From Lysobacteraceae bacterium NML93-0399 (GTDB lineage: Bacteria; Pseudomonadota; Gammaproteobacteria; Xanthomonadales; Xanthomonadaceae), in assembly GCA_002307375.1 (NCBI GenBank), contig NTJI01000001.1:62001-126000 (forward strand): a stretch of DNA of 64,000 nt. Reading direction: 5' to 3'. A program made the translations under genes and the position numbers. Positions 15,585-34,418 of this stretch are shown here, one piece after another (position 1 is the stretch's first letter; every line of letters starts with the position of its first letter). Under the pieces are notes generated by a model. That model saw nothing but the letters and a program-made list of their open reading frames with translations, had not been told where the DNA came from and ran no database searches.

Positions 15585-18851
<3,267 letters not shown>

Positions 18852-18852
18852 G

Positions 18853-19974
<1,122 letters not shown>

Positions 19975-20104
19975 GAGGTCTTCGCCTACGTCAGGTTGCA
20001 GGAAACCGCCAGAGCGGTGGAAACCGGTCCGGAGGTTTTGGGTTCAGGCGAGCGGGAATTGTACGGGTCCGGCCCGCCGCGCGCCAGCGATCCGCACGCG
20101 ATGT

Positions 20105-20845
20105 TCAGCCGCCGCGCTCTCGGCCCGGCGTGGCGCCGAGGAGGTCGGCGATCGCATGCTGGCCCGGTGCACGGCCGGCCAGGCGTGTGGCCACGTGCAA
20201 CGCGCCGCTGGCGAAGATGTCGCGATTGGTCGCCCGATGGACCAGCTCGACCCGCTCGCCGTTGCCGGTGAGCTGCACCAGATGTTCGCCGACGATGTCC
20301 CCCGCACGGATCGACGCATAGTGCGGGTCGGCGCCCTGCCCGGCCGCAGCCTCGCCCAGGGTCAATGCCGTGCCCGACGGCGCATCGAGCTTGCGCGTGT
20401 GGTGCGATTCGACGATGTCGCAATCCCAGCCCGGCAGCATGGCCGCGGCGCGCGCGACGAGTTCGCGCAACACCGCGACGCCGAGGCTGAAGTTGGACGC
20501 CCAGACGACCGGAATCGATCCGGCCGCAGTGTCGAGCGCGGCGCGCTGCACATCCTCGAGACCGGTGGTGCCGGACACGAGCGCTGCGCCGCGTTTGACG
20601 CACAGGGCCAGCAATGGATCGAAGCCGGCTGGCAGGCTGAAGTCGACTGCGACATCGAACGCCGGTACGCCGCCGAGTTCGGACGCGCCGAAGTACGGCA
20701 CGCCGTCGATGACCCTTTGTCTGGGCGCACGGCCCGACACCGCGGCGACGATTTCCAGATCGTCACGGTTCGCACCCAGGCGCAGCAGGGCCTGGCCCAT
20801 GCGGCCGGAGGCGCCGTGGATCAGCACGCGCGTGCGCGCGCTCAT
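20105..20845 (-). CDS. dapB: 4-hydroxy-tetrahydrodipicolinate reductase
   Basis: 246-aa enzyme of the lysine/diaminopimelate pathway. The nucleotide-binding GASGRMGQA (11-19) and the active-site block ESHHTRKLDAPSGTA (H148, H149, K152) match DapB. The ATG at 20845 is used; the frame stays open upstream to 21892, but that stretch is antisense to the SDR gene. It is 130 nt upstream of carA on the same strand. Confidence 0.97.
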   Translation of the reverse strand: MSARTRVLIHGASGRMGQALLRLGANRDDLEIVAAVSGRAPRQRVIDGVPYFGASELGGVPAFDVAVDFSLPAGFDPLLALCVKRGAALVSGTTGLEDVQRAALDTAAGSIPVVWASNFSLGVAVLRELVARAAAMLPGWDCDIVESHHTRKLDAPSGTALTLGEAAAGQGADPHYASIRAGDIVGEHLVQLTGNGERVELVHRATNRDIFASGALHVATRLAGRAPGQHAIADLLGATPGRERGG

Positions 20846-21052
20846 GCGGGCACCCCGTCGATGCGGAGACGACGAACGGCTGGCTGAAGGCGATCGATAT
20901 GCATGGCCGCATTCTAGCGATGCCGTGGCCATGGGCGCGCACCTGCGCGCGATGCGGCCGGCGCATCTGCGCGCCATTGCGCTTGCCCGGCCGGCAGACG
21001 CGCGAGTGTGCGTGCCGCTAGGCTTGGCGGCCCCCGATCGAGGAGTCTTTCC

Positions 21053-21814
21053 ATGCAGCTGTCCGACCAGATCGTCCTCGTGACCGGCGCCGGCCGTGGC
21101 CTCGGTCGCGACATCGCCCTCGCCTTCGCCCGCGAAGGTGCGCGCGTGATCGTCAATTACCGACGCAGTCGCGACGCGGCCGAAGCGCTCGCCGCGCAGA
21201 TCGGTCCGCGCGCGATCGCGCTGCAGGCCGACGTCACCCGGCGCGAGGAGGTCGATGCACTGTGCGCGCACGCACGGGCGCATTTCGATGCCGGCATCAC
21301 GACCGTGGTGAACAACGCGCTCGTCGATTTCGCTTTCGACGGCGATGCCCGTGCCCGGGCCGACGCGATCGAATGGCCGGCGTTCGCGGCGCAGTTCGAA
21401 GGCAGCGTGCGCGGCGCCCTGCACACCGTGCAGGCCACCTTGCCCGGCATGCGGGAACGCGGCTTCGGCCGTGTCATCAACATCGGCACCAACCTGTTCC
21501 AGAACCCGGTCGTGCCCTATCACGACTACACCGCGGCCAAGGCCGCCCTGCTTTCGCTCACCCGCACCCTGGCCGGCGATCTGGGCCCGGACGGCATCAC
21601 GGTGAACATGCTCTCGGGCGGGCTGCTGCGCACCACCGACGCCAGTGCCGCGACGCCGGAGGCTGTGTTCGACTACATCGCCGCGAACACGCCGCTGCGC
21701 AGCGTGACCACGCCTGTCGAGTTCGCCGATGCGGTGCTGTTCTTCGCCTCGCCCTGGGCGCGCGCGGTGACCGGGCAGAACCTCGTGGTCGACGGCGGGC
21801 TCGTGCGCGACTGA
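21053..21814 (+). CDS. Short-chain dehydrogenase/reductase (FabG-like)
   Basis: 253-aa Rossmann-fold SDR. The cofactor loop is TGAGRGLG (10-17), the structural motif NNA is present, and the catalytic YxxxK reads YTAAK. The usual catalytic serine 12-13 residues before the Tyr is replaced by T/N (NIGTNLFQ). The protein ends with the typical NLVVDGGLVRD. A GAGGAG site precedes the ATG; an ATG at 21008 was rejected as lacking one. It is divergent from dapB and sits alone, so the substrate cannot be predicted. Confidence 0.88.
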   Translation: MQLSDQIVLVTGAGRGLGRDIALAFAREGARVIVNYRRSRDAAEALAAQIGPRAIALQADVTRREEVDALCAHARAHFDAGITTVVNNALVDFAFDGDARARADAIEWPAFAAQFEGSVRGALHTVQATLPGMRERGFGRVINIGTNLFQNPVVPYHDYTAAKAALLSLTRTLAGDLGPDGITVNMLSGGLLRTTDASAATPEAVFDYIAANTPLRSVTTPVEFADAVLFFASPWARAVTGQNLVVDGGLVRD

Positions 21815-21974
21815 GCGTTCCATCGACGGAGATCTGCGTGGCGTCCGTCGGCGCCGCGTCACGTGCGCGACATGTCGCCATGCGCGGGTCAAGCGGCGCG
21901 TCGAACCTTAGCCATGCGAACGGTCAAATTTTCACCAGCGCTCGAAGGCCCGCATCGCAAGCGGGCCGGCAAGG

Positions 21975-22027
21975 CTTGTCCACAGACTTGTCATCACATC
22001 ATCCACAGCCGCTGTGGATGAAGTCCG
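21975..22027. promoter_or_regulatory. DnaA-box module 1
   Basis: Contains TTGTCCACA (21976-21984), TCATCCACA (21999-22007) and its mirror TGTGGATGA (22013-22021). The last two form a perfect 10-bp inverted repeat around CCG. All resemble the DnaA box TTATCCACA on one or the other strand. Confidence 0.7.
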
Positions 22028-22209
22028 GGTTAGTCAGCAGACGTCATCCGGTCAAGCGCAAGCGCACGTGGCGCGGCCGTCTGCCCCGGTATCGATTTCT
22101 GCTCATGCGCGACGATGCGCGAGCGCGTGCGCAGGTCAAGCCCATTCGCGGTGACCGCTCCGCAACACTGGCGAAAGAATGACCACGCCTTCGGCGTGCC
22201 GACACGAAG

Positions 22210-22270
22210 CCATCCACAGCGCTTATCCACACCTTTGTCATCAGGCCATCCACACCCGATGTGGATACCG
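22210..22270. promoter_or_regulatory. DnaA-box module 2
   Basis: Contains an exact consensus DnaA box TTATCCACA (22223-22231), flanking CCATCCACA (22210-22218 and 22246-22254) and a reverse TGTGGATAC (22260-22268). The order and spacing match modules 1 and 3. Confidence 0.75.
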
Positions 22271-22350
22271 CGTCGGCTAGGTCGCCGGCGCCCGCGAGTC
22301 AAGCGCCTCGCACGCGAAAACGCGGCCGGGCCGCGCCATGGCGGGATTTG

Positions 22351-22378
22351 ATGCACGTTCGAGACCTCGAACGTGCAT
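22351..22378. repeat. Perfect 13-bp palindrome inside the DnaA-box island
   Basis: Arms 22351-22363 and 22366-22378 are exact reverse complements (ATGCACGTTCGAG) around a 2-nt centre. It has no T-run, so it is more like a protein-binding site than a terminator. Confidence 0.75.
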
Positions 22379-22448
22379 GTGCCCTCGGTCACACTGGCGA
22401 GGAAATGACCAGCGCCGCCCAAGCCTGCACACACGCGCACTTGCATCG

Positions 22449-22502
22449 CTTATCCACAACATTGTCGACACGCGATCCACACCCGCTGTGGACGAAATCC
22501 GC
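22449..22502. promoter_or_regulatory. DnaA-box module 3
   Basis: Contains a second exact TTATCCACA (22450-22458), CGATCCACA (22473-22481) and reverse TGTGGACGA (22487-22495). The alignment with modules 1 and 2 is gap-free over about 50 bp. Confidence 0.75.
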
Positions 22503-22540
22503 CTGTCTCTCGCGCATACATGGCGACGGCGACAGACACG

Positions 22541-22565
22541 AAAACGCCCGGCCAGGGCCGGGCGT
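22541..22565 (-). terminator. Terminator of the hrcA-grpE-dnaK-dnaJ operon
   Basis: On the minus strand a 10-bp GC-rich stem (ACGCCCGGCC with its complement, 2-nt loop) is followed directly by TTTTCG, 26 nt after the dnaJ stop. Good intrinsic terminator. Confidence 0.85.
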
Positions 22566-22591
22566 CTCGAAGTCTCGAAAGCAGCAATCGC

Positions 22592-23725
22592 TCAGGACGT
22601 CATACGGTCCCAGAACCCTTTGACGCCATCCATGAAAGTGCTCGACTTGGGCGAATGCCGGCGCGCGTTCTCCTTGGTGAACGTCGCCTCGAATTGCTCG
22701 AGGATGTCGCGCTGCTCGGCCGTCAGATTGACCGGCGTTTCCACGACGACCTTGCAGTAGAGATCGCCCGGCCCGCGGCTGCGCACCGATTTGACGCCCT
22801 TGTCGCGCAGGCGGAACACCTTGCCGGTCTGCGTCTCGGACGGCACGCGGATCTCCGCCTCGCCACCCAGCGTGGGAACGCGGACGGTGTCACCGAGCGC
22901 AGCCTGCGAGATCCGCACCGGCACCTCGCAATGCAGGTCGTCGCCGTCACGCTCGAAGATCGCATGCGGACGCACCCGCACTTCGACGTAGAGATCGCCC
23001 GGCGGCGTGCCCGCGGGACCTGCCTCACCCTCGCCCGACAGACGGATGCGGTCGCCGGTATCGACACCGGCCGGCACCTTCACCGACAGCACCTTCTCGT
23101 CCTCGACACGGCCGGCGCCATGACAGCGCTTGCAGGGATTGGCGATGATCTGACCCTGCCCGCCGCAATGCGGACAGGCCTGCTGCATGGTGAAGATGCC
23201 GCGCTGCATGCGCACCTGGCCGCGGCCGGCGCAGGTGGAACAGGTCTCGCGCTTGCCGTCTTCCGAACCGCTGCCGTCGCATTCGTCGCAGGCCGCCAGG
23301 GTCGGCAGCTCCACACGCTTCTCCACGCCGGCGACGGCTTCCTCGAGGTCGAGCTCCATCACGTAGCCGACGTCGGCACCACGACGCGGGCCGCCACGTC
23401 CGCCGCCACCTCCGAAGATGTTGCCGAAGATGTCGCCGAAGATGTCGCCCATGTCGGCGCCGCCGAAGCCCGGCCCCGCATTGCCGCCGCCCATGCCGTG
23501 CTCGAACGCGGCATGGCCATGCTGGTCGTACATGCGCCGCTTGCCGCCGTCCGACAGCACCTCGTAGGCCTCCTTGCACTCCTTGAACGCAGCTTCCGCG
23601 GCGGCATCGCCCGGATTGCGGTCGGGATGGTGCTTCATCGCACAGCGGCGATAGGCCTTCTTGAGTTCGTCTTCGGTCGCGCTGCGGGTGACGTCCAGCA
23701 CTTCGTAGTAGTCGCGTTTGCTCAT
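22592..23725 (-). CDS. dnaJ: Chaperone DnaJ
   Basis: 377-aa type I Hsp40. The J domain carries HPD ([11 protein letters not shown]), followed by a Gly-rich linker ([21 protein letters not shown]) and four CxxCxGxG-type zinc repeats ([32 protein letters not shown]). C-terminal substrate-binding domains complete it. It stimulates DnaK ATPase and delivers substrates. It is the last gene of the operon, separated from dnaK by a terminator-like hairpin, so it may be expressed at a lower level. Confidence 0.98.
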
Positions 23726-23731
23726 ACGGCA

Positions 23732-23850
23732 GTGATTCGTAATTCGTGATTGGTGATTCGAAAAAGCGCGCTTGACCCCGAGTCGCGAAAGAAAGAAGCG
23801 GAACCGGGGCTCCGCTTCTTCCAGTCACGAATCAGGAATCGACCAATTAC
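23732..23850. repeat. Inverted heptad repeats around the dnaK-dnaJ hairpin
   Basis: Four tandem 7-bp units (TGATTCG, TAATTCG, TGATTGG, TGATTCG; 23733-23760) lie on the dnaJ side. Complementary copies (CGAATCA, CCAATTA) lie at about 23828-23850 on the dnaK side. Together they form an outer imperfect stem enclosing the hairpin at 23793-23820. The right edge touches the 3' end of dnaK. Confidence 0.7.
23793..23820 (-). terminator. Hairpin between dnaK and dnaJ
   Basis: Perfect 10-bp stem (arms 23793-23802, 23811-23820, loop ACCGGGGC) followed on the minus strand by TCTTTCG. It could attenuate readthrough from dnaK into dnaJ or protect the dnaK 3' end. Confidence 0.7.
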
Positions 23851-25766
23851 GACTTCTTCTCGTCGTCCTTGACCTCGGTGAACTCCGCGTCGACCACGTC
23901 GTCAGACTTCGGTGCATCGCCCGGGGCCGCACCGGCCTCGCCCTGGCCGGCCGCACCGGCGGCTGCGAACAGCTGCTGGGCGACTTCCTCGAGGTGCTTG
24001 GACTTGGCCTCGATCTGGCCCTTGTCGTCGCCCTTCATCGCGGTTTCGACTTCCGCGATCGCGGCTTCGGCGTTGCCGATCAGATCGCCCGGCAGCTTGT
24101 CGCCATTGTCCTTGATCGCGCTGCGGGTGCTGTGCACCAGCGCATCGGCCTGGTTGCGCGCGCCGACGAGCTCTTGGAACTTCTTGTCGTCCTCGCGGTG
24201 CGCCTCGGCATCGGCGACCATCCGGGCGATCTCGTCGTCCGACAGGCCCGAACCGGCCTTGATCTCGACCTTCTGCTCCTTGCCGGTCTTCTTGTCCTTG
24301 GCCGACACGTGCAGGATGCCGTTGGCGTCGATGTCGAACGACACTTCCACCTGCGGCATGCCGCGCGGCGCCGGGTCGATGCCGGTCAGGTCGAACCGCG
24401 CCAGCGACTTGTTGAAGCGGGCCTGCTCGCGCTCGCCCTGCAGCACGTGCACGGTCACGGCCGACTGGTTGTCGTCGGCGGTCGAGAACGTCTGCGAGGC
24501 CTTGGTCGGGATCGTGGTGTTCTTCTCGATGATCTTGGTGAACACACCGCCCAGGGTTTCGATGCCCAGGCTCAGCGGGGTCACGTCGAGCAGCAGCACG
24601 TCCTTGACGTCACCGGCCAGCACGCCACCCTGCACCGCCGCGCCGATCGCCACGGCCTCGTCGGGGTTGACGTCCTTGCGCGGCTCCTTGCCGAAGAAGT
24701 CGGCAACGGCCTGCTGGACCTTGGGCATGCGGGTCTGGCCACCGACGAGGATGACCTCGTTGATGTCGGACGCGCGCAGGCCAGCATCGTTGAGCGCGAT
24801 GCGGCAGGGCTCGATCGACTTCTTGATCAGATCCTCGACCAGCGCTTCGAGCTTGGCGCGGGTCAGCTTGATGTTCAGATGCTTCGGGCCAGAGGCGTCT
24901 GCGGTGACGTACGGCAGGTTCACCTCGGTCTGCTGGCTCGAGGACAGCTCGATCTTCGCGCGCTCGGCCGCGTCCTTCAGGCGCTGCAGCGCCAGCGGAT
25001 CCTTGCGCAGGTCGATGCCCTGATCCTTGTTGAACTCCTCGACGAGGTAGTCGATGACGCGGGCGTCGAAGTCTTCGCCGCCGAGGAAGGTGTCGCCGTT
25101 GGTGGCCAGCACCTCGAACTGCTTCTCGCCGTCGACTTCCGCGATCTCGATGATCGACACGTCGAAGGTGCCGCCGCCCAGGTCGTATACGGCGATCTTG
25201 CGGTCACCGCCCGACTTGTCGAGGCCGTAGGCCAGCGCGGCCGCGGTCGGCTCGTTGATGATGCGCTTCACATCCAGACCTGCGATGCGGCCGGCGTCCT
25301 TGGTCGCCTGGCGCTGGCTGTCGTTGAAGTAGGCCGGCACCGTGATCACCGCTTCGGTGACCTTTTCACCCAGGTAGTCCTCGGCGGTCTTCTTCATCTT
25401 CTCGAGAATGCGCGCGGAGACTTCCTGCGCGGAGAGCTTCTTGCCGTCGCTCGTCGACACCCAGGCATCGCCGTTGTCGTGCTCGAGGATCTTGTAGGGC
25501 ACCAGGCCGATGTCCTTCTGGACCTCGGCATCCTTGAACTTGCGGCCGATCAGGCGCTTGACCGCGAAGAAGGTGTTGCTGGGGTTGGTAACGGCCTGAC
25601 GCTTGGCCGACGCGCCCACCAGAACTTCGCCGTCCTTGGTGTAGGCGACGATCGAAGGCGTGGTGCGGTCGCCCTCGCTGTTCTCGATGACCTTGGCCTT
25701 GCCGCCGTCCATGATCGCCACGCACGAGTTGGTCGTGCCGAGGTCGATGCCGATGATCTTTGCCAT
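23847..25766 (-). CDS. dnaK: Chaperone DnaK (Hsp70)
   Basis: 639-aa Hsp70. The ATPase domain begins [15 protein letters not shown] and contains the phosphate-2 block [13 protein letters not shown] and [10 protein letters not shown]. The substrate-binding domain contains [14 protein letters not shown], and the acidic lid ends [15 protein letters not shown] precedes the ATG. It folds and refolds proteins with DnaJ and GrpE, its operon partners. Confidence 0.99.
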
Positions 25767-25878
25767 TGCGGGGATTCCTCTAAGAGATTGCGTATCTGGG
25801 TGACGGCTGGGCCGTCGATGCCGGGTATCTGGGGACGTGCAACACAGCGTTCAAGCGCCGTGTGCAGGTGCGCGCAGG

Positions 25879-26412
25879 TCAGTCGGCCTTGGCGACGACG
25901 ACCATCGCAGGCCGCAGCAGGCGCTCGTTGAGCAGGTAGCCCTTCTGGAACACCTGCGCCACCGCGCCCGGCGGCACGCCCGGCACCTCGACGATGCTCA
26001 TCGCCTGGTGGTGCTCGGGGTTGAACGGCTCGCCCGGCGCCGGCGCCACGGTCGACAGGCCGTTGCTCTCGGTCGCCTTGGTCAGCTCGCGCAGCGTCAG
26101 CTCGACGCCGCTGCGCAGCGGATCGGCTTCGCCAGCGCTGGCCAGGCCGGCTTCGAGCGCGTCGAATACCGGCACCAGCGCCGACAGCAGACGCTCGTTG
26201 GCGAAGCGGCGGGCACTCTCGACCTCGCGCGCCAGGCGCTTGCGCTGGTTTTCGAGGTCGGCGCGCTCGAGCAGACTCTGCGCGCGCAGCTGTTCGAGTT
26301 CGGCGCTGAGCAGTTCGACCTGCTCGGCCAGTTGCTGTTCGACCGAGGTCTGGGCCTCGCCGTCGGTGTCGTGGAATTCGGGGGTCTGGGAGTCGTGCTG
26401 GGGCTGGGTCAT
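25879..26412 (-). CDS. grpE: Nucleotide exchange factor GrpE
   Basis: 177-aa GrpE: a Gln/Asp-rich N-terminus, a long coiled coil (LAEQVELLSAELEQLRAQ...) and the C-terminal beta domain block HHQAMSIVEVPGVPPGAVAQVFQKGY. It releases ADP from DnaK. It lies 64 nt after hrcA and 112 nt before dnaK. Confidence 0.98.
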   Translation of the reverse strand: MTQPQHDSQTPEFHDTDGEAQTSVEQQLAEQVELLSAELEQLRAQSLLERADLENQRKRLAREVESARRFANERLLSALVPVFDALEAGLASAGEADPLRSGVELTLRELTKATESNGLSTVAPAPGEPFNPEHHQAMSIVEVPGVPPGAVAQVFQKGYLLNERLLRPAMVVVAKAD

Positions 26413-26476
26413 GTCCGGTTCCGGGGCGGTCGTCTGGCCGCCGACGGCACCAGCTATGGGGCCGGCCGGCCGTGAT

Positions 26477-27520
26477 TCAAGACTCCGGATGCAAGGCAGC
26501 CCCCAACAGGCTGGCCGTGGCCTGCACCACCGGGATCACCCGGTCGTAGGCCATGCGCGTGGGACCGATCACGCCCAGGACGCCCAGGGTGCGCCCCGCC
26601 GCGCTGTAGGGCGCGGTGACCAGCGACATGCCCTCCAGCGGCGCCAGTCCGGTCTCCTCGCCAATGAAGATGCGCACGCCCGGGGCCCGGATCGTGCGTT
26701 CGAGCAGCTGCAGGATCTCGCGCTTGCGGGCGAAGGCTTCGAACAGCTCGCGCAGGCGGTCGAGATCGGACAGGTCCTGCACCCCGATCAGCCGGTTCTG
26801 CCCCGCCAGCAGCATGCCCTCGTCGCCGGGCACCAGCGCCTGCTCGGCCAGTTCCATCGTCTGCGACAGCAGCGCTTCCATCTCGTCACGGGCGTGACGC
26901 AGTTCATCGACCAGAGCAGCACGGATGTCGCCCAGCGGTCGGCCGGCGAACTGCTGATTGAGATAGTTGGCGACACGCTCGAGTTCGGCGGCCTCGAAAC
27001 TGCGACGGGTCTGGATGATGCGGTTCTGCACCTCGTGGTCGGCGAAGACGATGATCGCCATCACCCGCTGGCCGTCGAGCGGCACGAAATCGATGTGCCG
27101 GAACGCGAGCTGCTCGCGGCGTGGCACCGAGACCACGCCGACGAAATGGGTCATCGCCGATACCAGTTCCGACGCACTGCCCAGCAGCGACTGCTGTCCA
27201 CCGATCGCGCCGAGTTCGCCGCGCAGACGTTCCATTTCCGGCGCGCGCAGCGGCTTGACCTGCAACAGCGAGTCGACGAACACGCGGTAGCCCTGCGCGG
27301 TCGGCACCCGCCCGGCCGACGTGTGCGGCGAGACCAGCAGACCCGACTCCTCCAGGTCGGCGAGGATGTTGCGGATCGTCGCGGCGCTGACGTCGAGGCC
27401 TGCGTGGCGGGCCAGCGTCTGCGAACCGACCGGCTCGCCGTCCTGGATGTGGCGCGCGATCAGCGTGCGCAGCACCTGACGCGCGCGCGGGTCCAGGGGA
27501 TGACGGGTCTCGGACGGCAT
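26477..27520 (-). CDS. hrcA: Heat-inducible transcription repressor HrcA
   Basis: 347-aa repressor. The winged-helix N-terminus has DPRARQVLRTLIARHI and GLDVSAATIRNILADLEESGLL; a GAF-like dimer domain and the conserved SPHTSAGRVPT follow. HrcA binds CIRCE elements, but no TTAGCACTC/GAGTGCTAA pair is visible in the window, so its operator is elsewhere (for example at groESL) or diverged. Start 27520 is picked by family alignment; the upstream ribosome site is weak. It is first in the chaperone operon and divergent from recN. Confidence 0.96.
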   Translation of the reverse strand: MPSETRHPLDPRARQVLRTLIARHIQDGEPVGSQTLARHAGLDVSAATIRNILADLEESGLLVSPHTSAGRVPTAQGYRVFVDSLLQVKPLRAPEMERLRGELGAIGGQQSLLGSASELVSAMTHFVGVVSVPRREQLAFRHIDFVPLDGQRVMAIIVFADHEVQNRIIQTRRSFEAAELERVANYLNQQFAGRPLGDIRAALVDELRHARDEMEALLSQTMELAEQALVPGDEGMLLAGQNRLIGVQDLSDLDRLRELFEAFARKREILQLLERTIRAPGVRIFIGEETGLAPLEGMSLVTAPYSAAGRTLGVLGVIGPTRMAYDRVIPVVQATASLLGAALHPES

Positions 27521-27647
27521 GCGGGCGGTATACGGCCCCGCTGCAGGCGATGCAAGCGCCGCACGGCGTTCTCCGACCGTGAGACGGCCACGCGGTATCC
27601 AGCACGCGTCTACACCGCCGCGATCGGCCAAGGCACAATCCGCACCC

Positions 27648-29333
27648 ATGCTGACCCATCTCGCCATCCGCAATTTTGCCGTCGCCAGCCAGTCGGATCT
27701 GGAGTTCGGCGCAGGACTGACCGTCATCTCCGGTGAAACCGGCGCCGGCAAGTCGTTGCTGGTCGATGCGCTGGGTTTTCTGTCGGGCCAGCGCGCCGAC
27801 AGCGGCATCGTGCGCCACGGAGCCGAACGCGCGGAACTGCACGCGGAGTTCGCGCTCGACGATGCCGCGCCCGCGCTTCGCTGGCTGCGCGAGAACGAAC
27901 TCGACGACGGCGGACTCGAAAACGGCATGGTCTGCCAGCTGCGCCGCACCCTGCGCGCCGACGGCGGCTCGCGCGCGTGGATCAACGGGCGTCCGGCAAC
28001 GATCGCCCAGCTCGGGGAGCTGGCCGGCCATCTGGTCGAGATCCACGGCCAGCACGAACACCAGGCCCTGCTCGCGCGTGGCAGCCAGCTCGCCCTGCTC
28101 GATGCGCAGGCCGGGAACGCGAAGCTGCTCGCCGACGTGCGCGCGGCCACGCAGGCCTGGCGCGCGCTCAGTGACGAGCGCGAAGCGCTCGTGGGCATCG
28201 GCGATGTCGGCGAGCGTCGCGATTGGCTGCGCCATCAGCTCTCCGAGCTCGACGGCGAATCGCTGGCCGAGGATGCGGTCGCCGAGCTGTTCGCCAGCCA
28301 CCGGCGCCACGCCAATGCAGCCGGCCTCATCCAGACCTGCGACGCGGCGCTGCTGCGCATGCGTGGCGACGATGCCCTGGGTCTGCCGCAGGCGCTGCAG
28401 GCGCTTCGGCACGATCTGGGCCGGATGCGCGCGCATGAACCGCGGCTGGGCGATGTCGACGCCATGCTCGACACGGCTGCGATCCAGCTCGACGAGGCCA
28501 CGCGCCTGCTCGACCAGGTGCGGGACGATCTCGATATCGATCCCGATGCGCTGGCGACACTGGAAGCCCGGCTCGGCCGCCTGCACGAACTGGCACGCAA
28601 GCACCGCGTCACACCCGAGGAACTGGGACAGGTGCAGGCGCGCCTGACCGCCGAACTCGAAGCACTCGACGGCGCCGGGGACCGCCTGCGCCAGCTCGAC
28701 GGCGAGATCGAAGCGGCATTCGCCCGCTGGCGCACTGCTGCCGACACGCTCGGCGCGGCGCGGCGCAAGGCGGCCGAGGCGCTGTCGGCGGCGACCACCG
28801 CGCTGATCCACGAACTGGGCATGGGCGGCGGCGTGTTCGAGGTGGCGATCGAGCCGCTCGAAGTCACGCGCCCCGACCCGCAGGGCGCCGAACGCGTGGA
28901 GTTCATGGTGTCGGCCAATGCCGGCCAGCCGCCGCGTGCCTTGCGCAAGGTCGCGTCAGGCGGCGAACTGTCGCGCATCTCGCTGGCGATCGAGGTCGCC
29001 GCGCTCGGCCACGACGCCGTGCCGACGATGGTGTTCGACGAAGTCGATTCGGGCATCGGCGGCGCGGTGGCCGACATCGTCGGCCGCAAACTGCGCGCAC
29101 TCGGCGCCAGCCGACAGGTGCTGTGCGTCACCCATCTCCCGCAGGTGGCGGCCAAGGGTCATGCGCACTACCGCGTGCACAAGGCTGCGGCAGAGGGCGC
29201 GACCGAAAGCCATGTGACCCGACTCGACGAGCGCGCACGCGCCGAGGAGCTGGCGCGCATGCTCGGCGGTGTCGAGGTCAGCAAGGAAGCGCGTGCGGCG
29301 GCCCGCAAGCTGCTGGCGACCGCCGACGCCTGA
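27648..29333 (+). CDS. recN: DNA repair protein RecN
   Basis: 561-aa SMC-like ATPase for double-strand break repair (E. coli 553 aa). Walker A is GETGAGKS (29-36), a coiled-coil middle follows, the ABC signature is ASGGELSRISLAIEV and Walker B is TMVFDEVDSGIGG. Start 27648 is preferred over 27519, whose extra 43 residues overlap the hrcA promoter region. It is divergent from hrcA with a 127-nt gap. Confidence 0.97.
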   Translation: MLTHLAIRNFAVASQSDLEFGAGLTVISGETGAGKSLLVDALGFLSGQRADSGIVRHGAERAELHAEFALDDAAPALRWLRENELDDGGLENGMVCQLRRTLRADGGSRAWINGRPATIAQLGELAGHLVEIHGQHEHQALLARGSQLALLDAQAGNAKLLADVRAATQAWRALSDEREALVGIGDVGERRDWLRHQLSELDGESLAEDAVAELFASHRRHANAAGLIQTCDAALLRMRGDDALGLPQALQALRHDLGRMRAHEPRLGDVDAMLDTAAIQLDEATRLLDQVRDDLDIDPDALATLEARLGRLHELARKHRVTPEELGQVQARLTAELEALDGAGDRLRQLDGEIEAAFARWRTAADTLGAARRKAAEALSAATTALIHELGMGGGVFEVAIEPLEVTRPDPQGAERVEFMVSANAGQPPRALRKVASGGELSRISLAIEVAALGHDAVPTMVFDEVDSGIGGAVADIVGRKLRALGASRQVLCVTHLPQVAAKGHAHYRVHKAAAEGATESHVTRLDERARAEELARMLGGVEVSKEARAAARKLLATADA

Positions 29334-29376
29334 CGTTATCCGATGCGCTGCACGCGCACTGGCGCGCCGTTCGGTA

Positions 29377-29446
29377 TGTAGGAGCGCGCTGGCGCGCGAA
29401 AAAGGCCTTCCCGTGAAAGCCCGTCGCGCGCGAGCGCGCTCCTACA
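29377..29446. repeat. Single GTAG-type REP pair
   Basis: Two inverted copies of TGTAGGAGCGCGCT...CGCGCGA (29377-29399 forward, 29424-29446 reverse) differ by one base. They form a BIME-like hairpin between the convergent recN and fur, 44 nt after recN. Confidence 0.8.
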
Positions 29447-29514
29447 CAGCGCATCAGCGCTCGGTCTTACCGAAAATTGCTTTCACCGGCGAAAGCGTGG
29501 CGCACTGAAGCGAA

Positions 29515-29919
29515 TCAGCGCTTCTTGCGTACGTAGAGCACCAGCGAGTGCTCTTCGAGGATGTAGCCGTGCTGTTCAGCGATCTGCCGCTGCAGGGCTT
29601 CGATCTCGTCGCTCTCGAACTCGATGATCTTGCCGCTGTCGACATCGACCATATGGTCGTGATGACCACCACGGTCGAGTTCGTAGACGGCGTGACCGCC
29701 TTCGAAGTTGTGCTTGAGCACGAGGCCTGCCGCCTCGAACTGGGTCAGCACGCGGTATACGGTCGCCAGTCCGATTTCGTCGCCCTGCTCGAGCAGCTGG
29801 CGATAGATGTCCTCGGCGGTCATGTGCTGGCGCGGCGTACGCTGTTCCAGCAATTGCAGGATCCGCATCCGCGGATGGGTGACTTTCAGTCCGGCCTTGC
29901 GCAGGTCGAGCGATTCCAT
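29515..29919 (-). CDS. fur: Ferric uptake regulator Fur
   Basis: 134-aa iron-responsive repressor. The N-terminal winged helix (GLKVTHPRMRILQLLEQ, GLATVYRVLTQFEAAGLV) is followed by the metal site GHHDHMVDVDSGKIIEFESDEIE. The zinc CxxC pair seen in many Fur proteins is replaced by VDVDS, so no structural CxxC zinc site is expected. A CTGGAGAC ribosome site precedes the ATG. It is divergent from bamE/omlA, as in Xanthomonas. Confidence 0.96.
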   Translation of the reverse strand: MESLDLRKAGLKVTHPRMRILQLLEQRTPRQHMTAEDIYRQLLEQGDEIGLATVYRVLTQFEAAGLVLKHNFEGGHAVYELDRGGHHDHMVDVDSGKIIEFESDEIEALQRQIAEQHGYILEEHSLVLYVRKKR

Positions 29920-30051
29920 GATGTCTCCAGAACAGGCCGGTGAGAACGGGCCGGCATTCCACTGGCGGTTGAACGCCAGCTGCCTGAATCGCGGTCGCGG
30001 CGTGGCGCGCAGTGTATCATCGGCCGGTCATTCCAGGCCGTCTCCAACGCC

Positions 30052-34065: not shown

Positions 34066-34418
34066 TGGTGGAGGTGGCGGGAATTGAACCCGCGTCCGAA
34101 GGCACTCCATCCCCGGTACTACATGCTTAGCTCGCCGTTGGATCTCGCCCCGGAACAGCACGGCGCGCAAAGCGCATCCCGGAGCCAGCCTGTGAGTTCA
34201 ACCACGGCAGACAGGCGGCCGCCGCGGCTGGTTCCCGTGATAATGACCCTACATCCACGAGCACGGGCACAAGTGGGTTCGGGGCTTACGCCTTAAGCGG
34301 CGAGAGCGTAGTTGTCGTCGTTGGCAACTATGAGTTTGCCGCTGGATTTACGAGGAAAGCTGCCCCCTCGGCATGCACCAGGCAATTTCGCGACCCCCGT
34401 CGAAGCCAGTGCACCCCC
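34066..34418 (-). ncRNA. ssrA: tmRNA (SsrA)
   Basis: About 353-nt transfer-messenger RNA. The 5' GGGGGTG pairs with CACCTCC before the encoded A-CCA at 34066, and the T-arm GGTTCAATTCCCGCC is present. The tag frame (34293-34325) encodes [10 protein letters not shown] then TAA. It rescues stalled ribosomes with SmpB and tags nascent chains for proteolysis. Confidence 0.97.

Follow-up and report, generated by a model that had tools for sequence, protein, structure and literature searches.

The window analyzed in this work, a stretch of 64,000 nucleotides from a Luteimonas-like bacterium, harbors an intergenic island toward which both neighbouring genes point, that is, an SDR gene on the forward strand and, on the reverse strand, the dnaJ gene of a grpE-dnaK-dnaJ cluster (the gene names around the island are our reading of the ORF translations). 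No promoter-like site was detected between positions 21700 and 22700; the same interval contains two terminator-like hits, neither of which overlaps a DnaA box, and one of them (22184-22198, reverse strand) touches the palindrome of unit 2 listed in Table 1. A scan of positions 18000-30000 against Rfam gave no match. Farther along the window, at positions 34066-34418, a tmRNA gene with its tag was recognized.

The island embeds three modules of DnaA boxes, each consisting of a forward box 1, 3 bp, a forward element W, 2 bp, a forward box 2, 5 bp and an inverted box 3, which can be written as TTRTCCACA>, 3 bp, TTGTCNNCA>, 2 bp, NNATCCACA>, 5 bp, < inverted box. Order and spacing are the same in 3/3 modules, a statement already made in an earlier sequence-only reading of this DNA and now borne out by inspection of the sequence, by a repeat finder and by a box scan. 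That reading placed the module starts at 21975, 22222 and 22449; the number of modules stands, while box 1 begins one base later in each, the modules spanning positions 21976-22021, 22223-22268 and 22450-22495 with start-to-start distances of 247 and 227 bp (the repeat finder reports them as a three-copy family). The two exact consensus boxes that it counted are the TTATCCACA copies serving as box 1 in modules 2 and 3, module 1 having TTGTCCACA instead. What it called a TTGTC element reads as a weak forward DnaA-type box (W), TTGTCATCA or TTGTCGACA, because some relatives carry TTGTCCGCA at this very position. A perfect 13-bp inverted repeat, ATGCACGTTCGAG, is also present between modules 2 and 3, at window positions 22351-22378.

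Table 1. Features of the island and of its three units (positions are those of the window).
Feature	Position	Strand	Basis or remark
Intergenic island between convergent gene ends	21815..22591	.	SDR ORF end 21814 (+), dnaJ ORF end 22592 (-)
GTCAAG flank of unit 1	21888..21893	+	further copies start at 22051, 22135, 22298
Unit 1 Fis-like palindrome CGGTCAAATTTTCACCA, 1 mismatch to TGGYSAWWWWWTSRCCA	21921..21937	+	motif scan
Module 1 box 1, TTGTCCACA	21976..21984	+	sequence, box scan
Module 1 weak box W, TTGTCATCA; counterpart of DARS box III by register	21988..21996	+	sequence, register argument
Module 1 box 2, TCATCCACA; counterpart of DARS box II	21999..22007	+	sequence, box scan
Module 1 box 3, inverted TCATCCACA, 5 bp from box 2; counterpart of DARS box I	22013..22021	-	sequence, box scan
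Unit 2 Fis-like palindrome TGGCGAAAGAATGACCA, 1 mismatch	22169..22185	+	motif scan
Extra ATCCACA directly ahead of module 2	22212..22218	+	sequence
Module 2 box 1, exact TTATCCACA	22223..22231	+	sequence, box scan
Module 2 weak box W, TTGTCATCA	22235..22243	+	sequence
Module 2 box 2, CCATCCACA	22246..22254	+	sequence
Module 2 box 3, inverted GTATCCACA	22260..22268	-	sequence, box scan
Unit 3 Fis-like palindrome TGGCGAGGAAATGACCA, 2 mismatches	22395..22411	+	motif scan
Module 3 box 1, exact TTATCCACA	22450..22458	+	sequence, box scan
Module 3 weak box W, TTGTCGACA	22462..22470	+	sequence, box scan
Module 3 box 2, CGATCCACA	22473..22481	+	sequence
Module 3 box 3, inverted TCGTCCACA	22487..22495	-	sequence, box scan

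By number alone, single boxes do not stand out in the window, with 13 one-mismatch boxes versus 7.7 expected and 13 reached in 5 of 100 shuffles, so the evidence rests on their arrangement. Indeed, with up to six mismatches allowed, the module pattern is matched three times in the real 64-kb window and never in 20 dinucleotide shuffles.

The host genome (3.57 Mb in seven contigs) contains six modules at three sites: three in the island, two at C2:153 kb and one at C2:613.9 kb. With six copies at three sites, the island is not a repeat scattered over many loci, the outcome that the sequence-only reading had regarded as damaging to its proposal; dnaA, whose location that reading had suggested checking, was found at C1:1573542, away from the module sites. 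The gap between dnaA and dnaN contains an exact DnaA box and an AT-rich stretch, and is likely oriC. A second or cryptic replication origin in the island might be suggested by DnaA boxes lying in an intergenic stretch; however, the island does not exceed 50% A+T in any 40 bp, versus 73% in the dnaA-dnaN gap, and in view of this missing AT-rich stretch and of the likely oriC we rejected this explanation as extremely improbable. The genome also encodes a Fis homologue (45% over 82 aa), DnaA itself and an Hda-like ORF starting MSSPSPQLPLAL. The QLPLAL at the start of the latter is what we take to be a clamp-binding site, and Hda-type inactivation of DnaA is likely to be present in this host. Since DnaA, the Fis homologue and the Hda-like protein with QLPLAL are all encoded, it is probable that ADP-DnaA is formed and that it would have to be recharged.

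Each module is preceded by a Fis-like palindrome. In 80 units picked by the box pattern alone, the TGGYSAWWWWWTSRCCA palindrome (up to four mismatches) starts 54-56 bp before box 1 in every unit, the mean in mononucleotide-shuffled flanks being 3.08 of 80; it has zero or one mismatch in 59 of the 80, and at three mismatches or fewer it was recovered in 78 of 81 units versus 0.4 after shuffling. The strict Fis consensus GnnYAnnnnnTRnnC is less frequent (15/81 units, shuffled mean 7.4) and has no match anywhere in the island of the window. The IHF consensus (one mismatch at most, either orientation) occurs in a single unit out of 81, and a search of the forward strand of the island for both IHF orientations, with up to two mismatches, gave one match, at 22224, within a box.

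When the units nearest to dnaJ are compared in 10 genomes, boxes 1, 2 and 3 are 98-100% identical and W is 90% identical, with values of 62% for the palindrome and 35% for the sequence outside. Paralogous units agree in 42% of the palindrome and in 34% of the sequence outside boxes and palindrome, versus a chance level of 28%, in agreement with the diverged repeat units described previously. Because the box pattern served to pick the units, the identities of the boxes arise partly by construction, those of the palindrome do not. Almost no consensus exists outside the span from palindrome to box 3, and the interval between palindrome and box 1 shows a weak one. As for short flanking motifs, GTCAAG stands beside many Luteimonas units (window, loci L007 and L008), and its reverse, CTTGAC, is found in many units of Pseudoxanthomonas and Stenotrophomonas, where it lies in the interval from palindrome to box 1; in some of the class elements described below, it adjoins the core.

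Allowing up to three mismatches, the module pattern was retrieved from 98 of the 297 genomes drawn from the family (14/54 genera), with no match of the backward control; a pattern one base shorter between W and box 2, which represents an unplanned spacing control, matched 0/297, own genome included. A relaxed pattern (one mismatch at most in 18 bases) was found in 133 of 297 genomes and 24 of 54 genera, with none in the control; for the four-box module this number is an upper limit, since it also takes in certain >3>5< elements and one-mismatch rows of doubtful status (the rows were inspected in part), and 98/297 is the stricter count. The module is not universal, given that 10 of the 18 genomes of a same-genus draw are without even a relaxed match, the other eight including a doubtful single one (G232). 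In a collection of named genomes the exact pattern occurs in 45 stretches (several per genome), all with Lysobacteraceae names, which comprise Luteimonas, Pseudoxanthomonas, Stenotrophomonas, Xanthomonas and other Lysobacteraceae; membership in the family was confirmed for boreopolis and Luteimonas, the remaining named genomes presumably belonging to it as well.

The conservation in relatives, on which the sequence-only reading had staked its proposal, was thus found, and it extends to the sites. On the basis of tblastn with the genes of the window, L007 and L008 (rows counted by hand), 10 genomes, including all eight Luteimonas-named ones, have the module beside dnaJ and in the vicinity of dapB and carA; it adjoins an fdhA-like or VOC gene in seven and lies between GST and prpF in two; dnaJ also falls inside 8 kb in L111, L125, L143, L145 and L146 (Stenotrophomonas) and in L140 (boreopolis). 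The island is one member of a family-wide set. The number of module matches at dnaJ is 1-4 per genome, and relaxed matches reach eight per genome in genus g29. These several copies per genome, the tandem arrays and the variable copy number at dnaJ might be those of a decayed repeat family or mobile element without function; against this, the boxes are kept (in part by selection of the units) while the flanks have diverged to near chance, the sites are common to different species, viral contigs gave no exact match of the pattern and plasmids no match of the island by blastn, all of which makes such an origin very unlikely. No single rule was seen in the tandem spacings (126, 136, 227, 246 and 325 bp). 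Tandem pairs exactly 126 bp apart occur in six Pseudoxanthomonas stretches and one of Xanthomonas (L110, L119, L129, L131, L135, L136, L138), several of which show a CCTTGC..GCAAGG hairpin between palindrome and box 1; another genome carries three identical tandem modules 137-139 bp apart (G107:C44:41015, 41154, 41291).

The orientation of the neighbouring genes bears on a possible role in gene expression. A called gene is present on either side of 38 module loci, and these loci comprise 24 convergent, 11 tandem and 3 divergent cases. The 120 gaps of at least 100 bp in the same stretches comprise 36 convergent, 62 tandem and 22 divergent ones; orientations were assigned by crude scoring of ORFs, and the 38 do not include the 14 modules located at the ends of stretches or the 3 inside called ORFs. 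Several other Luteimonas genomes have tandem instead of convergent neighbours at their dnaJ site. An element under DnaA or Fis control that regulates or terminates transcription of dnaJ or the SDR gene would be in keeping with the adjoining heat-shock operon, with the inverted repeat formed by boxes 2 and 3 and with the terminator-like hit touching the unit-2 palindrome, and the related core situated before priA (see below) could regulate priA. Nevertheless, the position of the island between convergent gene ends with no promoter-like site found, the excess of convergent loci over background (as far as the crude gene caller goes) and the absence of terminator-like hits over the boxes render this role very unlikely.

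In E. coli, the DARS sites recharge DnaA, the initiator of chromosome replication, and DARS2 requires IHF. DARS1 and DARS2 both read box I >, 5 bp, < box II, 3 bp, < box III, with the head-to-head pair at 2608+/2622- of L012 and at 2136+/2150- of L013, respectively. According to PMC5742627, DARS sites have in common a box I opposite to boxes II and III with equal spacing in DARS1 and DARS2, and head-to-head contact of DnaA on boxes I and II is prominent, ADP-DnaA oligomers releasing ADP there. Boxes 2 and 3 of the module stand head to head with the same 5-bp gap as the I-II pair (80/80 units, although the gap was fixed in the selection pattern), box 3 (I) is opposite in orientation to box 2 (II) and W (III), and the module is likewise intergenic and located between oriC and terminus; on the other hand, its counterparts of boxes II and III are 2 bp apart where DARS has 3 bp, and a fourth box is present compared with a three-box core. 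Like DARS1 (101 bp, three-box core), it carries further forward box(es) beside box II, but the fourth box is strong, there are several copies and a palindrome lies at a fixed distance. DARS2 (455 bp, core plus IHF and Fis sites) is reported, in PMC4245941, PMC8682772 and PMC5742627, for E. coli and E. coli-proximal species such as Vibrio cholerae and Shewanella, and its IHF site is placed between the core and FBS2-3 (PMC4245941, with which our consensus hits agree); modules differ in having no IHF consensus and in the distance of 37-39 bp that separates their Fis-like site from the first box. The DARS2 region (L013:2321) contains a 17-bp sequence, TGGCGAAAGATCAACCA, with three mismatches to the Lysobacteraceae palindrome, close to an exact DnaA box at position 2347.

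Of the 369 genomes drawn from the class, 266 contain the plain DARS core (>3>5<, up to two mismatches), which is represented in 201 of 272 genera. A phylum draw yielded it in 144 of 299 genomes, some of them outside the class, and neither draw gave a match of the backward control. E. coli DARS2 has four mismatches to the core pattern and is therefore missed at this threshold; the pattern was checked on family f183, of whose 11 genomes in the phylum draw 8 match, six of the eight being one base off the E. coli DARS1 core (a 32-base match). The gene priA lies within the stretch (about 1.5 kb each side) at 21 of the 53 class loci fetched (L043-L064, L069, L148-L177), which include at least two pairs from the same place; this link was first seen on inspecting ten loose-pattern class loci. 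In E. coli no such core exists between priA and rpmE. The host genome possesses one DARS core, at C1:790791 (L178:700, L184:2292), directly before priA and with one mismatch, which is accompanied by a perfect IHF consensus at -102 and by the palindrome at -70 with three mismatches. Our searches of an open-licence library gave no report on such an element before priA or in Xanthomonas-type bacteria. The occurrence of the four-box module outside the family was considered and rejected: the pattern without W (up to two mismatches) matched 26 of 369 class genomes, and the non-family rows inspected were three-box >3>5< elements or box pairs. Neither rpmH nor dnaA motifs were detected near those loose-pattern class loci.

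Of 70 class-type elements, 53 have an IHF consensus (one mismatch at most), mostly between -99 and -103 (shuffled mean 8.5); 32 have the strict Fis consensus, 19 of them at -69 (shuffled mean 7.8); and 27 have the palindrome (three mismatches at most), 22 of them at -69 to -71. In these 22 elements box III starts 66-68 bp after the start of the palindrome, and in the modules W starts at the same distance of 66-68 bp; from this shared register it follows that W answers to box III and boxes 2 and 3 to boxes II and I, box 1 having been added. Modules and class-wide core therefore have in common the palindrome-to-box III register, the I-II pair and the putative Fis-type site, whereas the core keeps the >3>5< arrangement and an IHF consensus at about -101 and is mostly matched one to three times in a genome. 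Relative to this usual core, box III is weakened in the module and a further strong box stands 12 bp upstream, a combination that might be expected to raise occupancy.

To relate the modules to the replication arm, we considered eight single-contig relatives together with the host contig C1 (the two-contig genomes G233 and G287 and the host C2 sites were left out), with genome lengths rounded to 0.1 Mb and the terminus taken as the point opposite the origin. The island is 1.49 Mb from dnaA on C1, that is, 0.84 of the way to the opposite point. All 23 zero-mismatch loci lie beyond the middle of the arm, on the side of the terminus (0.53-0.93), and at 19 of them the module points against the fork; as related genomes share loci, these 23 represent perhaps ten independent cases. 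One-mismatch loci deviate, 2 of 7 being in the terminus half. The same calculation puts E. coli DARS1 at 0.66 and DARS2 at 0.41, the modules being nearer the terminus than DARS2. In four genomes of genus g29, two or three variant modules (G277:C1:879632, G179:C1:798775, G209:C1:755786, G195:C1:1055673), with TCCACG in box 2, form a cluster of their own at 0.35-0.43 of the arm and are oriented with the fork.

The main alternative to a recharging function is a sink, in which the modules would hold DnaA, in any nucleotide state, off oriC, or promote ATP hydrolysis like datA. This reading is compatible with modules that each hold several strong boxes and that occur repeatedly in a genome, six times here and with as many as eight relaxed matches in g29. 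There is also a precedent in B. subtilis, which resembles the present case in having several DnaA-box clusters outside oriC; PMC13220808 states that deletion of six such clusters leads to early initiation. In contrast, pure titration needs neither a head-to-head pair with a fixed 5-bp gap nor a palindrome at a fixed register, and late-replicating sites would presumably serve poorly just after initiation. The module shares with E. coli datA, compared through its description, the clustering of DnaA boxes away from oriC; datA, however, acts with IHF, its minimal form consisting of boxes 2, 3 and 7 plus one IHF site (PMC5742627), and this consensus was not found in the modules. On balance, a sink appears possible but not probable. 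The sequence-only reading had suggested a site of the datA or DARS type: the anatomy (5-bp pair, palindrome register, conserved site) supports the DARS half well, the datA half being weaker because an IHF consensus site was not found.

We are therefore inclined, with somewhat more confidence than doubt, to regard the island as a tandem of three conserved DnaA-box elements that would work like E. coli DARS, recharging ADP-DnaA. According to this recharging model, ADP-DnaA would assemble on the head-to-head boxes, shed its ADP and leave ready for ATP, the palindrome possibly acting as a Fis-type support site, and the DnaA so recharged would help in timing the next initiation. The features that we count against it are the 2-bp II-III gap, the fourth box, the rarity of the IHF consensus, the few strict Fis matches, the identity of only 42% between paralogous palindromes, a position nearer the terminus than that of DARS2, the lack of a match in 10 of the 18 same-genus genomes and the tandem neighbours in several Luteimonas. 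Since the II-III gap differs by 1 bp, a box has been added and the IHF consensus was not found, we do not file the module as a DARS; what we claim is that it likely "works like" one, short of DARS membership.

The data reported here point to a DARS-core element in most of the class genera sampled (201/272) and to a multiplied derivative of it in one family, both of which are concrete pieces of DNA for testing. It is tempting to speculate, although we consider it rather improbable as a whole, that Lysobacteraceae possess a terminus-side, multi-copy recharging array made of four-box derivatives of a gammaproteobacteria-wide DARS element and spread through late-replicating gene gaps. If this were true, recharging capacity would double only as the forks near the terminus, and hence the completion of one round of replication would license the next.
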